Shown here piece by piece: positions 5,583 to 22,043 of a DNA stretch of 40,210 nucleotides (position 1 is the stretch's first letter; the number at the start of each line of letters is the position of its first letter). Where the stretch lies: positions 1-40,210 of the forward strand of contig JAUHYH010000003.1 in assembly GCA_030426585.1 (NCBI GenBank). Direction: 5' to 3'. The stretch comes from Bacteriovoracia bacterium (lineage in GTDB: Bacteria; Bdellovibrionota; Bacteriovoracia; Bacteriovoracales; Bacteriovoracaceae). The notes below the pieces were generated by a model that did no database searches, had not been told where the DNA came from, and saw nothing but the letters and a program-made list of their open reading frames with translations. Made by a program: the position numbers and the translations under genes.

Positions 5583-6392
5583 CTACAGAAACTTGCTTCC
5601 ATGCTTTGGTAAAAATCTATAGACTCCATAAATTAAGCCCGAATAAATGATTAAGTACTGCCATTGAGTGGGATAACTTAACCCAAAACCAAGCTCCCAA
5701 ACCAGCGCAAAGCTGACGGTCAGAAACGAAAAGAGGATTGCAGCAAAAAGACCTAGTCGGTGATAAACAATACTAGAAATAAAAGCGTACAAAGGTGGCA
5801 AGAGAAAGAAAATATTCCAACGAATTCCATTAAAAGAAATAAGTGGAATCTCTCCTACAAAGTTCTCAATTGGAAAAAATGTATAAAGTGGAGCAAAGGA
5901 AACACTTCCCAAAAGCTCCAAACCAAGATCCGCTAAAAGGATAAAGAGAAGCAATTTTAACTCTGAATAAGAGTCTTTAAAGGTATCAATGATTCCAAAA
6001 TAATAAAAAGCTAAAATCGGAAGCATTCGCACTCCAGGGATCCCTACTAACATCAAGTCTCCTGCTGGTCCCACAAGAAGATAACCTATGATTTTAGGAA
6101 GAGTGGCCACACCAAGAGCACAACCAACGACCGTGAATAGTATTTTCGAATCTTTTATCGCAGTTAAGTTCAATCTTCTTTTCATCAAAACAACAAAAAG
6201 AGTAAACAGAGCGATCGTAAGAAAATCTCTAAAGTAAGCACTTTGAAATAAGGTAAAATATAGATAATCACTCGCTCCCTCTGGACTCACCAGTTTAGGG
6301 ATACTTCCAAGATATCGAGCAAGGTGATCGAAAAACCAAAGTGGTAAAGAGATAAGAATAAGCGGGAGAAAAATTGATTTAATTCTATTCAT
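5583..6392 (-). CDS. Multi-pass membrane protein, unknown function
   Basis: 269 aa ORF with several hydrophobic segments. Confidence 0.7.
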   Translation of the reverse strand: MNRIKSIFLPLILISLPLWFFDHLARYLGSIPKLVSPEGASDYLYFTLFQSAYFRDFLTIALFTLFVVLMKRRLNLTAIKDSKILFTVVGCALGVATLPKIIGYLLVGPAGDLMLVGIPGVRMLPILAFYYFGIIDTFKDSYSELKLLLFILLADLGLELLGSVSFAPLYTFFPIENFVGEIPLISFNGIRWNIFFLLPPLYAFISSIVYHRLGLFAAILFSFLTVSFALVWELGFGLSYPTQWQYLIIYSGLIYGVYRFLPKHGSKFL

Positions 6393-6428
6393 ACATCTAG
6401 CCTAGCACCAAAAATTTTTATTTAAAAT

Positions 6429-6466
6429 ACTCCGCTACCGAAGTGTTTTCGCGAATATTTATTTAG
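6429..6466 (+). repeat. 38-nt palindrome-plus-tail element, copy A
   Basis: ACTCCGCTACCGAAGTGTTTTCGCGAATATTTATTTAG; aligns without gaps to copies at 10656, 19922 and 21382. Confidence 0.8.
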
Positions 6467-6480
6467 TGTTTATTGAACCT

Positions 6481-7776
6481 CTATCTTCTTTTCCCTTGTT
6501 TCTTTCTATTTACCAGACGCTTCTTACGAACAGAGGATTTTTTATTATTTGGCCTACGATTTCGCGATTGAGCACGCTTATTATTCTGACTGGCCTTTTT
6601 GGGCTTAGGTCGAAAGAGCTCTTCAAGTGTCTGCCTATCCGTGTGATAAGGTTGGTCCTCATCTACATTAAGCTTCTTTTTAATAAACTTTTCGACACTA
6701 GTGAACAGGCTTAGTTCCGATTGGTCACAAAATGAAATCGCCACTCCTTCTCGTCCCGCTCGAGCAGTTCTTCCGATCCGGTGAACATAAACTTCAGGAT
6801 CTTCCGGAAGATCGTAGTTAATCACGTGACTAACATGATCAACATCAATCCCTCTGGAAGCAATATCAGTGGCAATGAGGATCTTAAACTTCCCCGAGCG
6901 AAAACCTTCAAGTGCTTTTTCTCGAGCGTTCTGAGATTTATTCCCGTGGATAACACCTGATCGTATCCCCGCTTCTTCTAAATATTCAAGCGCTTTATTC
7001 GCTCCTCGCTTGGTTCGCGTGAAAATCAAAACACTTTTGATGTTTTTCTCTTTGCTCAAAATATGGAGAAGCAGATTCGGCTTATTTTTCTTTTTCACTA
7101 AATGAATCCGTTGAGCAATCTTCTCTACCGTCATCTTCTCAGGAGTGACTTCAACTTTAACAGGATCTCTCAACAGAGAATTCGCAAGCCCAATAATTCC
7201 CTTAGGCATTGTTGCTGAAAAAAGGAGGGTTTGTTTTTTCTTTGGAAGCTGCTTGATGACCTTTTTCACATCATTCAAAAAACCCATATCAAGCATACGA
7301 TCGGCTTCATCAAGGATGAAAACCTCAAGCTCGTCATAGCGAATATACCCTGAATCCATTAAATCCAAGAGTCGCCCCGGCGTCGCAATCAAAATATCGA
7401 GACCTTTATTCAGCGCTTTGATTTGTTTCGCGTGGGCCACCCCACCAAAGACAACAGCACTCGAAAGTTTTAATCCCTTTGAATAACTTTGAATATTCTC
7501 TTCAATCTGTGAGGCCAACTCACGAGTCGGAGTCAGAATCAAGGCACGAACATTGCGAGACTTCGGTCGGGTTTTCTTGCTCCCCAACCGACTGATCAAG
7601 GGTAATGAAAAGGCCGCCGTTTTCCCGGTCCCCGTTTGAGCGATCCCCAAAAGGTCTTTTCCTTTTAACAAATGAGGGATCGACTGCTCCTGAATGGGAG
7701 TCGGCTTGGTATACCCTTTCTCAGCAATTGCTTTTTTGATCGATGGAAGCAGATCCAGAGCGCTAAAATTAACCAC
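6481..7776 (-). CDS. rhlE: DEAD-box ATP-dependent RNA helicase, RhlE-like
   Basis: Motifs AQTGTGKT, PTRELA, TPGR, DEAD, SAT, HRIGRTAR; basic C-terminal tail. Confidence 0.88.
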   Translation of the reverse strand: MVNFSALDLLPSIKKAIAEKGYTKPTPIQEQSIPHLLKGKDLLGIAQTGTGKTAAFSLPLISRLGSKKTRPKSRNVRALILTPTRELASQIEENIQSYSKGLKLSSAVVFGGVAHAKQIKALNKGLDILIATPGRLLDLMDSGYIRYDELEVFILDEADRMLDMGFLNDVKKVIKQLPKKKQTLLFSATMPKGIIGLANSLLRDPVKVEVTPEKMTVEKIAQRIHLVKKKNKPNLLLHILSKEKNIKSVLIFTRTKRGANKALEYLEEAGIRSGVIHGNKSQNAREKALEGFRSGKFKILIATDIASRGIDVDHVSHVINYDLPEDPEVYVHRIGRTARAGREGVAISFCDQSELSLFTSVEKFIKKKLNVDEDQPYHTDRQTLEELFRPKPKKASQNNKRAQSRNRRPNNKKSSVRKKRLVNRKKQGKRR

Positions 7777-10184: not shown

Positions 10185-10634
10185 TTAAGGAAATATATCC
10201 AATCTATAAAAAACGAGTCCGTACTTTTCTCTTCCAGCAATAACCCGCACTTTTTTAAAAGATGGATTTTTCTTGGTGTAGAAATAATATCTCCGCCCTA
10301 GAGCTTTCACCTTTTCAAGACTACTTAAGAATTTATCATCTAATATCAAATCTTTATTAAATGTTTTTTTAACCCATTCAACGAAAAGTTCTTTCGTTCT
10401 CTTATTTAACTTTTCAAGAATTTTTTCATTTTGGGCATCGTGAATGATATCGAGTGATTTATCGTCTCCAACTGATCGAGTTTTTATATAGGTCGAGACT
10501 GTATATGCCCACTGAGAAACCTTCCCTTCAGAGTTTGAAAAGGCTCGCTCGTGCTTACCGATTTCCCCAGGAGTTCCTCCGTCGGAATAGGCTAATTGAG
10601 TTAAAAGTAAAAATGGTATTAATAAGTATTTCAT
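10185..10634 (-). CDS. Small secreted protein, unknown
   Basis: 149 aa ORF with signal peptide. Confidence 0.65.
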   Translation of the reverse strand: MKYLLIPFLLLTQLAYSDGGTPGEIGKHERAFSNSEGKVSQWAYTVSTYIKTRSVGDDKSLDIIHDAQNEKILEKLNKRTKELFVEWVKKTFNKDLILDDKFLSSLEKVKALGRRYYFYTKKNPSFKKVRVIAGREKYGLVFYRLDIFP

Positions 10635-10655
10635 GGACCCAGACTAGCAAAAAAT

Positions 10656-10693
10656 ACTTCGGTACCGAAGTAATTTATTAATTATTTATTTAG
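10656..10693 (+). repeat. 38-nt palindrome-plus-tail element, copy B
   Basis: ACTTCGGTACCGAAGTAATTTATTAATTATTTATTTAG; perfect 16-nt palindrome head; overlaps the stop codon of the ORF6N gene. Confidence 0.85.
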
Positions 10694-11237
10694 AGTTTAA
10701 ACCAATCTTTTTTCTCTTGGTTGGTAAAGCTGGAGCCTCCGCCTCTAAATTATCCAACCTTTCAAAAACTACTTTAAAAATTTGATTCGTCCCTTCTTCA
10801 AATTTTTCAAATCTTTCAGCGAGGTCCTCATCAGACTTAACAATCTTCCTGAGCTTGATAAAGGTACGGATAATAGAAAGGTGGACCTTCACGGCCCTCT
10901 CGCTCCTAAGCACTGAGGAAAGCATGGCGATGCCGTGTTCGGTGAAGACGTAAGGAGTATATCTTCGACCTCCATGACTCAAACTTGAGGTTCCAATTTG
11001 GAACCTCAAGTTTGTGAGCTCGTCCTCATTGAGTCTGAACCTAAAATCCTCAGGAAATCGCTCGATATTCCGACTGACTGCCTTGTTCAGGTTTTTCGTC
11101 TCAACCCCATACAGCTCCGCCAAATCACTATCCAACATGACCTTCTGACCGCGGATGATGTAGATAATCTTTTCAATATCTTTTAAAGTAATTTCTTCCA
11201 CTGGGCTCAGTACATGCAAGAATTTAAAATACTGCAA
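10686..11237 (-). CDS. ORF6N domain-containing (phage antirepressor/KilA-N-like) DNA-binding protein
   Basis: 'IIYIIRGQKVMLDSDLAELYGVETKNLNKAVSRNIERFPEDFRFRL...NLRFQIGTSSLSHGGRRYTPYVFTEHGIAMLSSVL' is characteristic of ORF6N. Confidence 0.9.
   Translation of the reverse strand: MQYFKFLHVLSPVEEITLKDIEKIIYIIRGQKVMLDSDLAELYGVETKNLNKAVSRNIERFPEDFRFRLNEDELTNLRFQIGTSSLSHGGRRYTPYVFTEHGIAMLSSVLRSERAVKVHLSIIRTFIKLRKIVKSDEDLAERFEKFEEGTNQIFKVVFERLDNLEAEAPALPTKRKKIGLNSK
10980..11014. repeat. Perfect inverted repeat, 16-bp arms, 3-nt spacer, inside the ORF6N CDS
   Basis: CAAACTTGAGGTTCCA-att-TGGAACCTCAAGTTTG. Confidence 0.95.
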
Positions 11238-19411: not shown

Positions 19412-19900
19412 TTACTCCGGCTCCCCATCATGCGGCTCCAACTCCCTCTCAGGATAATCCTCCCACAACCAACCCTTCTCGCGCACTTCTTCATTGCACT
19501 TGGGATGAAGCGGATAAAAGATTTTATTCTCTTTCTTGGTAGACTCTCCCCCCACTAACAACAAAGCATTCTCACTCGAATTATTTAAAAACGTATGAGC
19601 GATTCCGGTTCCGGCGGGAAAGGCCACAAAATCTCCGGGGTTTAATTCATAAAGGTGTCCATCAATCCAAACGTGCGGAGCCTCAACCCCATAAGGTAAC
19701 TCATCCTCCCTACTATTGGCGTGCGGCCATGAGGTTCTTCGCCCCGGCGGCAAAGTTTCGATGTGAACCCCAATCTTCTTGAGACCGAGCGCTCTGCCCA
19801 CCTGGGCACCAATGCTCAGCAGTTCGTCACTGTTTGGGTAAGTGCAGTTGTCTTCGCTTATAACTTCTTTGTAGTTCTTGATAAAATCTGGTCTTTTCAT
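19412..19900 (-). CDS. Cupin domain-containing protein
   Basis: 'IGVHIETLPPGRRTSWPHANSREDE...HVWIDGHLYELNPGDFVAFPAGTGIAHTFLNNSSENALLLVGG'. Confidence 0.85.
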   Translation of the reverse strand: MKRPDFIKNYKEVISEDNCTYPNSDELLSIGAQVGRALGLKKIGVHIETLPPGRRTSWPHANSREDELPYGVEAPHVWIDGHLYELNPGDFVAFPAGTGIAHTFLNNSSENALLLVGGESTKKENKIFYPLHPKCNEEVREKGWLWEDYPERELEPHDGEPE

Positions 19901-19921
19901 GGAGAAAGGGTAACAGAAATC

Positions 19922-19959
19922 ACTTCGGTACCGAAGTATTTTCGTAGATATTTATTTAG
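19922..19959 (+). repeat. 38-nt palindrome-plus-tail element, copy C
   Basis: ACTTCGGTACCGAAGTATTTTCGTAGATATTTATTTAG. Confidence 0.85.
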
Positions 19960-19992: not shown

Positions 19993-20253
19993 TTAAGCCG
20001 CCTCAGGATAATCCGAGAACATAATAGAAGCTGGGTGTACATTGAGAGCTTCTGCAAGCAGGATCGCTCGATGTTTACCAATCTCGATTCGATTATTTTC
20101 AATGGCACTAATATTCGCTTGCGAAATACCGGTCGCCTCAGCAAGTTCGACCTGAGTCCACTCCTTCAGTTCGCGAAGCCCCCTCACCATCTCGCCTGGA
20201 GACATGAGAATCGTTTTCCCAGCTTTTACAAAATTCTTTTTATTCTTTCTCAT
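19993..20253 (-). CDS. XRE/HTH antitoxin of type II TA module (TA1)
   Basis: 'MVRGLRELKEWTQVELAEATGISQANISAIENNRIEIGKHRAILLAEALNVHP' HTH_3; immediately downstream of toxin ORF. Confidence 0.85.
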   Translation of the reverse strand: MRKNKKNFVKAGKTILMSPGEMVRGLRELKEWTQVELAEATGISQANISAIENNRIEIGKHRAILLAEALNVHPASIMFSDYPEAA

Positions 20254-20544
20254 TTAAACCTCTTCATATTTATGAGGGGTAATTTTCAATACATAAATCT
20301 CTTTGAGTTGTCTCTCCTCGGCGTAGATCACTCGGTATTGAAGATTCAATCTGGAAGCTCGGTATTCGCTTAAATTCCCTTTGAGCTTCTCATCCTTAAA
20401 ACCAGGATAGTTCTTGAGATTTTGAGGACCACCGAATCTCACAATTTCAATCCACAGCTTATACTTTTCTCGAATCCGCTGAGGGATCTTTCTCAGACTC
20501 TTTGTAACTTCCTTGGCTTCAAGGACTTCCCATTCTTCGCTCAT
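20254..20544 (-). CDS. RelE/HigB-like type II toxin (TA1)
   Basis: 'SLRKIPQRIREKYKLWIEIVRFGGPQNLKNYPGFKDEKLKGNLSEYRASRLNLQYRVIYAEERQLKEIYVLKITPHKYEEV'. Confidence 0.82.
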   Translation of the reverse strand: MSEEWEVLEAKEVTKSLRKIPQRIREKYKLWIEIVRFGGPQNLKNYPGFKDEKLKGNLSEYRASRLNLQYRVIYAEERQLKEIYVLKITPHKYEEV

Positions 20545-20826: not shown

Positions 20827-20958
20827 ACCATCACAACTAAAAATGGTCAATGCTCAAGGAGCTTCGAGCGAGATGCTGAGACGTATGCCCTGATACGTCG
20901 CAAGCGACGAGTCGAAGAATAGCGACGCAGATGATTGACCATTTTTAGCAGTGATGGT
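20827..20958. repeat. Long inverted repeat, 25-nt arms (23/25 complementary) around about 82 nt, abutting and overlapping the ssrA 3' end
   Basis: ACCATCACAACTAAAAATGGTCAAT (20827-20851) and ATTGACCATTTTTAGCAGTGATGGT (20934-20958). Confidence 0.9.
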
Positions 20959-21325
20959 GGAGGTGGTCGGAATCGAACCGACGTCCGGAAACCTTTCAGA
21001 GAGAGAGATCTACGTGTGTAGTTCCAATAAGCCCTGGAACCGGCTTACAACTTTTTGTATAACGTTGCCAAAACTCGGTGTTATGTTACGGAGTCTTCCC
21101 GACAACTCTCCGGAGAATTTTATTTTCCGTCAGACTCACAACTGACTTTGCTTGCTTTTTGTTATTGGTGCAAGCCCCTCAATAGTTGCGGTAGTCTTAG
21201 ACTAGGCAGCCATAGCAAATTGATTTTCACCAATTATAGTTTGGTCTCCTTGATAACGGGGCCAAGAGACCAACCCCGACACGCACTCAATTCGTCGTGA
21301 TCCCCGTCGAAACCAGGGCACCCCC
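20955..21325 (-). ncRNA. ssrA: tmRNA (ssrA), predicted tag (A)GENQFAMAA
   Basis: Reverse strand 5' GGGGGTGCCCTGGTTTCGACGGGGATC ... GGTGAAAATCAATTTGCTATGGCTGCCTAG ... GGACGTCGGTTCGATTCCGACCACCTCCACCA 3'; acceptor stem GGGGGUG/CACCUCC with encoded CCA. Confidence 0.96.
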
Positions 21326-21381: not shown

Positions 21382-21419
21382 GCTTCGGTAGCGAAGTGTT
21401 TTCGTAATAATTTATTTAC
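21382..21419 (+). repeat. 38-nt palindrome-plus-tail element, copy D
   Basis: GCTTCGGTAGCGAAGTGTTTTCGTAATAATTTATTTAC; overlaps the stop codon of the TA2 antitoxin, about 60 nt upstream of ssrA. Confidence 0.8.
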
Positions 21420-21715
21420 GCCGCCTGATCCAGCGGGATATTGACCATCTTGATGCCAAAAGGCTTCATCATCTTTCTTAAGGTCGAGATCTTAAGATCC
21501 TTCCCGACCTTAAGGTAATTACTGAGATTGGATGGGGCGAGACCAGAAAGCTCCCCGAATTCTTTGAGCCCGATGACGGAAACCATCATTCTGAGAATAA
21601 CAAGATCATTATCAATATCTTTACGAAGCTCGAGAAAGATCCCCTTTCTTCTTTTCTTGCTTTTGATCAGCTCTTTGCTCATTCTTTCTTCCCAGTCACT
21701 AAATCGGTTTGCCAT
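21416..21715 (-). CDS. HTH antitoxin of type II TA module (TA2)
   Basis: 'VILRMMVSVIGLKEFGELSGLAPSNLSNYLKVGKDLKISTLRKMMKPFGIKMV', overlapping the toxin ORF. Confidence 0.78.
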   Translation of the reverse strand: MANRFSDWEERMSKELIKSKKRRKGIFLELRKDIDNDLVILRMMVSVIGLKEFGELSGLAPSNLSNYLKVGKDLKISTLRKMMKPFGIKMVNIPLDQAA

Positions 21716-22043
21716 TGCGATACTCCTGATAAATCTTTTTGGCTAAATTAATATCTCGAGATTGATCACCCTTTGAATTCTTTCCTCCACCATTGAGGAG
21801 AAGAACCAATTCATTTCCTTCCAACGTAAAATAGACTCTTAATCCGACCTTGAACCGAAGCTCAGAAATTTCACCAAGTCGCTTCATATCTCCAAAGTAA
21901 GACATAAATCGGATCTTTAGCAATCTTGCTTCTATACGATCCCTTTGAGTTCGATCAAGCCTCTTGTACCACTTCAAATACTTCTGAGACTCGATAATTC
22001 TCAGTCTAACCTTACCACCATCTCCAAAATTATACAATACCAT
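21699..22043 (-). CDS. RelE/ParE-family (addiction-module killer protein type) toxin (TA2)
   Basis: 'YLKWYKRLDRTQRDRIEARLLKIRFMSYFGDMKRLGEISELRFKVGLRVYFTLEGNELVLLLNGGGKNSKGDQSRDINLAKKIYQEYR'. Confidence 0.85.
   Translation of the reverse strand: MVLYNFGDGGKVRLRIIESQKYLKWYKRLDRTQRDRIEARLLKIRFMSYFGDMKRLGEISELRFKVGLRVYFTLEGNELVLLLNGGGKNSKGDQSRDINLAKKIYQEYRNGKPI

Follow-up and report, generated by a model that had tools for sequence, protein, structure and literature searches.

A small family of short intergenic palindromic repeats, probably REP-like, in a Bacteriovoracaceae genome

The element at positions 10,656 to 10,693 of the window, i.e. the whole stretch of 40,210 nt that was analysed (contig C30 of a 2.65-Mb genome in 287 contigs), is one copy of a dispersed repeat family. 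This family has defined boundaries, is placed in intergenic DNA at gene 3' ends, is locally clustered, includes one tandem copy with a double palindrome and is absent from the other genera that were sampled. The best explanation, to which we assign a probability of about 0.55, is that the element belongs to a small lineage-specific REP-like family of short interspersed palindromic repeats of about 44 nt with about 18 copies. The four copies of the window and their neighbours, which were checked against the list of open reading frames and the tmRNA call, are the following (scores from the covariance model):

6406..6428, minus strand: second stretch resembling the tail, beyond copy 1 (ATTTTAAATAAAAATTTTTGG); it repeats the tail in direct orientation at a distance of about 41 nt and is also present in the C150 and C212 copies
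6424..6466, minus strand: copy 1, with tail 6466-6445, palindrome 6444-6429 (ACTTCGGTAGCGGAGT), then TATTTT; rhlE-like gene (stop at 6481) on one side, ORF 5583-6392 on the other; 67.2 bits, E 1.4e-9
10651..10693, minus strand: copy 2, with tail 10693-10672 and palindrome 10671-10656 (ACTTCGGTACCGAAGT); stop codon of the ORF6N gene within the tail, next gene start at 10634; 62.7 bits, E 1.1e-8
10686..11237, minus strand: ORF6N-domain gene upstream of copy 2 (PF10543, E 4e-36)
19917..19959, minus strand: copy 3, tail and palindrome between the HTH antitoxin gene (stop at 19993) and a cupin gene (19412-19900); 69.2 bits, E 5.8e-10
19993-20253, minus strand: HTH antitoxin upstream of copy 3 (PF01381, E 2.6e-14)
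20254-20544, minus strand: HigB/RelE-like toxin upstream of copy 3 (PF05015, E 1.7e-4, below cut-off)
20955..21325, minus strand: tmRNA (ssrA) downstream of copy 4, tag GENQFAMAA
21377..21419, minus strand: copy 4, palindrome ACTTCGCTACCGAAGC, upstream of the tmRNA; the tail gives the TAA (21416-21418) of a 99-aa ORF in antitoxin position; 62.1 bits, E 1.4e-8
21416-21715, minus strand: 99-aa ORF of a second TA-like pair upstream of copy 4, without Pfam match
21699-22043, minus strand: Gp49-like toxin candidate upstream of copy 4 (PF05973, E 1.4e-4, just below cut-off)

The tmRNA gene is closely flanked both upstream and downstream by TA-like pairs on the same strand (19993-20544 and 21416-22043). 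An Rfam scan found the tmRNA only and no family at the element. The original prediction had located four 38-nt sites at 6429, 10656, 19922 and 21382, whose sequences and positions proved to be exact; they align without gaps as described, but the conserved unit is somewhat longer. All four indeed have minus-strand genes on both sides, or such a gene on one side and ssrA on the other. Their supposed antisense orientation reflects only the reading of the plus strand; along the direction of the flanking genes, the tail of the element comes first. The two tails that contain a stop codon are those of 10656 and 21382, whereas the stop codon precedes the tail by 14 nt at 6429 and by about 33 nt at 19922.

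On the tail-first strand (minus in the window), the shared motif of about 44 nt reads CTAAATAAAT-N5-CGAAAACA, followed by the palindrome ACTTCGGTACCGAAGT and RWTTT; the bases after the palindrome are G/A, A/T and TTT, and the conserved unit extends about 5 nt beyond it. The invariant or nearly invariant blocks in the alignment of the 18 copies are TAAA(T)AAA, CGAA, the palindrome and TTT, and the spacer between the tail and CGAA has a nearly free sequence of constant length. The stem is adjoined by AAAAC/T on one side and by RWTTT on the other. Beyond columns -22 to +19 (palindrome core numbered from 0) the boundaries are sharp and the sequences unrelated. Beyond the palindrome, seven copies, including the one at 6429, have a second tail-like stretch (TATTTTAAATAAA or a very similar sequence) that repeats the tail in direct orientation at a distance of about 41 nt, and the C50 copy comprises two palindromes joined by a single tail in tandem, non-inverted arrangement. 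The imperfect palindrome of C212 (L034) is the exact reverse complement of the one at 6429 and in C150 (L031) with an unchanged order of the flanks, as if the 16-bp core had been flipped between them. In C74 (L005), the rpmE terminator is followed by a perfect 24-nt palindrome (TTAATTTAGAGATCTCTAAATTAA) and then by the element, whose tail end overlaps it; this additional palindrome is situated about 14-38 nt ahead of the element's own.

In the genome, the full motif with up to three mismatches occurs ten times, compared with zero occurrences of the reversed-pattern control, and the bare palindrome with up to two mismatches was found at 27 sites compared with eight in the control. The covariance model together with inspection resulted in 18 distinct loci. 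Of these, 14 have a full tail (E 6e-10 to 3e-8), and the flanks are partial in the remaining ones, which are found in C225, C3 (two copies) and C69. The genome-wide profile search proposed in the original prediction documents a family whose occurrence greatly exceeds chance. Four of the 18 copies are clustered within 15 kb (P about 0.002), and the two C3 copies lie within 3.1 kb of each other.

All 18 copies are intergenic. The adjacent genes have the same direction in 12 cases, are convergent in four (C149, C3a, C286 and C50) and divergent in two (C150 and C3b); the gene 3' end is usually found on the tail side, and the tail region contains the stop codon at 10656, 21382, C107 and C138. The flanking genes encode ribosomal protein L31 (rpmE), RsgA, IF-3 (infC) and L35 (rpmI), MiaA, GltX, Fpg, tRNA-Leu, tRNA-Cys, a subtilase, PhoX and a CYTH protein. 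Copies follow rpmE, rsgA, the tRNAs, the subtilase gene and infC, and precede gltX and rpmI, with distances of 22 to about 280 nt to the downstream start. The infC-rpmI gap comprises 267 nt in this genome versus 63-193 nt in five relatives of the same family with a parsable gap, which is weakly consistent with an insertion. The Fpg frame at C150 (L031:746-1560) lacks the first ~60 residues and a 58-aa open frame is located just upstream on the same strand; a frameshift, a pseudogene or an assembly error could account for this truncation.

Outside this genome, the search of 128 other genomes of the bacterial family (a sample of 48 genera that includes its own) gave no match at E 0.01 under stricter filters, and the search of 38 relatives gave a single weak match (G021, E 0.05) without the palindrome. 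Exact-pattern scans of GTDB species contigs and viral contigs found none; the window's own genome and very close ones may not be represented in them. Matches to plasmids and phages stayed at chance level (E 0.6). Judged from these searches, the repeat family is restricted to the genus or lineage.

The proposal that the element is a recombination site of an integron-like system for the acquisition of gene cassettes or TA modules was based on the TA or ORF6N genes that precede three of the four window copies, and integron attC sites are likewise imperfect palindromes just past stop codons. The tabulated upstream gene classes revealed that this cargo pattern is not typical of the genome but an accident of the window. 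Elsewhere the copies lie beside rpmE, rsgA, tRNAs, subtilase, infC, gltX and rpmI, and most of the genes upstream of them have housekeeping functions or are otherwise unrelated (L31, RsgA, IF-3, MiaA, tRNA-Leu, tRNA-Cys). The core-gene neighbourhood is the reason why the cassette reading fails; repeated cassette arrays are absent, neither of the attC core sites R'' and R' (RYYYAAC, GTTRRRY) is present in the conserved columns, and we regard this proposal as highly improbable. The cassette-like look of the four-copy pattern can arise from a REP-like placement bias. A promoter operator, which had also been considered, is unlikely because convergent genes flank four of the 18 copies and the spacing to the start of the downstream gene is so variable. 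Alternatively, the copies might be intrinsic terminators of transcription whose sequence is unusually uniform. Their location beyond stop codons, the presence in some of them of a hairpin (-6 to -12 kcal/mol) with T-rich sequence behind it and the canonical terminator of the relative L080 in the infC-rpmI gap, a place occupied by the element in this genome, are in favor of this explanation. However, when the copies were scanned for terminators in the tail-first direction, which is that of the upstream gene, only four of the 18 passed. At rpmE (C74) and tRNA-Leu (C149) the element is adjoined by canonical terminators with energies of -18 to -21 kcal/mol, two copies lie between divergent genes, and termination does not account for an invariant tail that precedes the stem by 8-22 nt. 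Stem pair 2/11 on the tail-first strand is T-A in seven copies, T-G in two and C.A in nine of the 18, and the double change to C-G is absent; pairs -2/15 and -3/16 are often broken, too. No strand thus maintains a paired hairpin by compensation, and an RNA element was rejected for either direction on these grounds. The weak terminator potential and the uncompensated mismatches support the original argument that a plain terminator is insufficient to account for the conserved tail. As an explanation of the whole family we consider termination improbable, but single sites such as 10656 may possibly function as terminators. A coding function was rejected as well: the variable palindrome positions -1, 2, 5, 8, 11 and 14 resemble codon third positions, a spacing that partly follows from the symmetry of the palindrome, but TAG is in frame in two copies.

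The distribution of changes over the alignment deserves separate consideration. It is uneven (variance/mean 2.9, or 1.8 with P 0.03 for the 15 columns that were not fixed by the first search pattern), and the variable columns are unlinked (P 0.54). Recently copied units should show subfamilies, and the observed picture would be produced by an old burst with subsequent constraint or by a protein-binding motif; this combination is more easily reconciled with a site under constraint than with units that were copied recently. It is mainly for this reason that our confidence in the REP-like interpretation is only moderate. The copies might accordingly represent dispersed sites of a lineage-specific DNA-binding protein, e.g. 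for nucleoid organization or cell division like the sites of Noc or SlmA, with a dimer on the palindrome and an additional contact to the A/T tail. This possibility is the main rival, but clearly less probable than the REP-like interpretation. Apart from the linkage equilibrium, it agrees with the invariant columns of tail (TAAA) and palindrome, between which the sequence varies freely while its length is constant. It also agrees with the retention of at least one perfect half-site CTTCGGTA in nearly all copies while changes in the stem are not compensated, a pattern that half-sites would be expected to produce but a hairpin would not. A copy number of about 18 is also typical of dispersed protein-binding sites. 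The sites of the Noc, SlmA and MatP type are bare palindromes that are not confined to intergenic DNA and, unlike the element, are not known to have a conserved one-sided tail of 22 nt. Common to both are about 20 scattered imperfect palindromes and the tolerance for half-sites (PMC4331003, PMC3116907). Arguments against protein binding are the strictly intergenic and mostly 3'-terminal location of the copies, the cluster of four within 15 kb and the lack of retention in any other genus of the family, which distinguishes them from conserved chromosome-organizing sites. Moreover, the chromosome of a complete relative has the orthologues of the neighbouring genes scattered between 0.45 and 2.75 Mb, which, if rough synteny is assumed, gives no sign of one macrodomain. 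Clustering in a macrodomain was rejected based on this scatter, which was obtained with several proteins of the window's genome joined end to end as the query. That the 18 copies are the functional sites of an undescribed genus-specific system, which would read the AT tail and the palindrome at a fixed distance at gene 3' ends and might insulate neighbouring transcription units or organize the nucleoid, for example, appears rather unlikely.

Among the three roles originally offered, i.e. cassette site, operator and REP-like element, the last one fits best with location, size and dispersal. The REP-like interpretation is based on the 18 loci in one genome compared with none in the 128 others of its bacterial family or, by exact pattern, in the species contigs, on their exclusively intergenic position, the local clustering and the unrelated flanks beyond sharp boundaries, and also on the double palindrome of C50 and the seven copies with a second tail-like stretch. 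Published REPs are mainly located between unidirectional and convergent genes near the 3' end of the upstream ORF, and their ends may supply its stop codon (PMC3733652), a placement that they have in common with the element. Like the REPs of the GTAG/CGTC super-families (20-45 nt; PMC3733652), it is centred on a palindrome, asymmetric, dispersed, intergenic and species-specific. It differs from them in the lack of a GTAG/CGTC tag adjoining the stem and of inverted dimers (BIME/REPIN), in the low number of about 18 copies, in the AT tail conserved at a distance of 8-22 nt from the stem and in a stem that is not maintained by compensation, and no cognate RAYT (REP-associated transposase) was found. 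In the assembled contigs, the element is absent from the readable flanks of both Y1_Tnp genes (C71, C133). The RAYT-like gene of C71 (G000:C71:2175-2938; L068:1377-2140) is flanked on both sides by GTAG-tagged palindromes (GGTGCCAGG..CCTG), which conform to GTAG-type REPs (GTAGGTGCCAGG..CCTG, GTAG-GGTGCC type); only these two copies match in the genome, and the gene and its palindromes apparently form a near-solitary RAYT-REP unit. The second RAYT-like gene (L067; G000:C133:1-517) runs off the contig end, and its flanks are partly readable. The few copies, the absence of tag and inverted dimers, the RAYT-like genes without the element, the uneven and unlinked columns and the uncompensated pair 2/11 were all counted against the REP-like interpretation. 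Since the tag, the high copy number, the inverted pairs and the cognate RAYT are missing, we name the repeats REP-like and not REPs of a RAYT system. Genome-specific families of stem-loop repeats are common in bacteria (Cozzuto et al. 2008, PMC2267715). The element resembles these short repeats of intergenic DNA, but its stem is weak and the conservation extends past the stem into the AT-rich tail. In the broad sense of REP-like or stem-loop repeats, its copies are genome-specific similar sequences found mostly at gene 3' ends.

The REP-like interpretation implies past mobility, which we infer for the repeat family as a whole. The repeats may have spread when some enzyme copied a single-strand hairpin or a similar intermediate into non-coding DNA. 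Copies would survive mainly where they are harmless, i.e. past gene ends, where the TAA-rich tail can act as a stop codon. A narrow literature search retrieved no paper on such repeats for this bacterial family. The finding is modest and largely ordinary, but the repeat family itself is real and adds a small genus-restricted repeat family to its bacterial family; if the sites were bound by a protein, their uneven conservation would indicate a new dispersed DNA-binding system.
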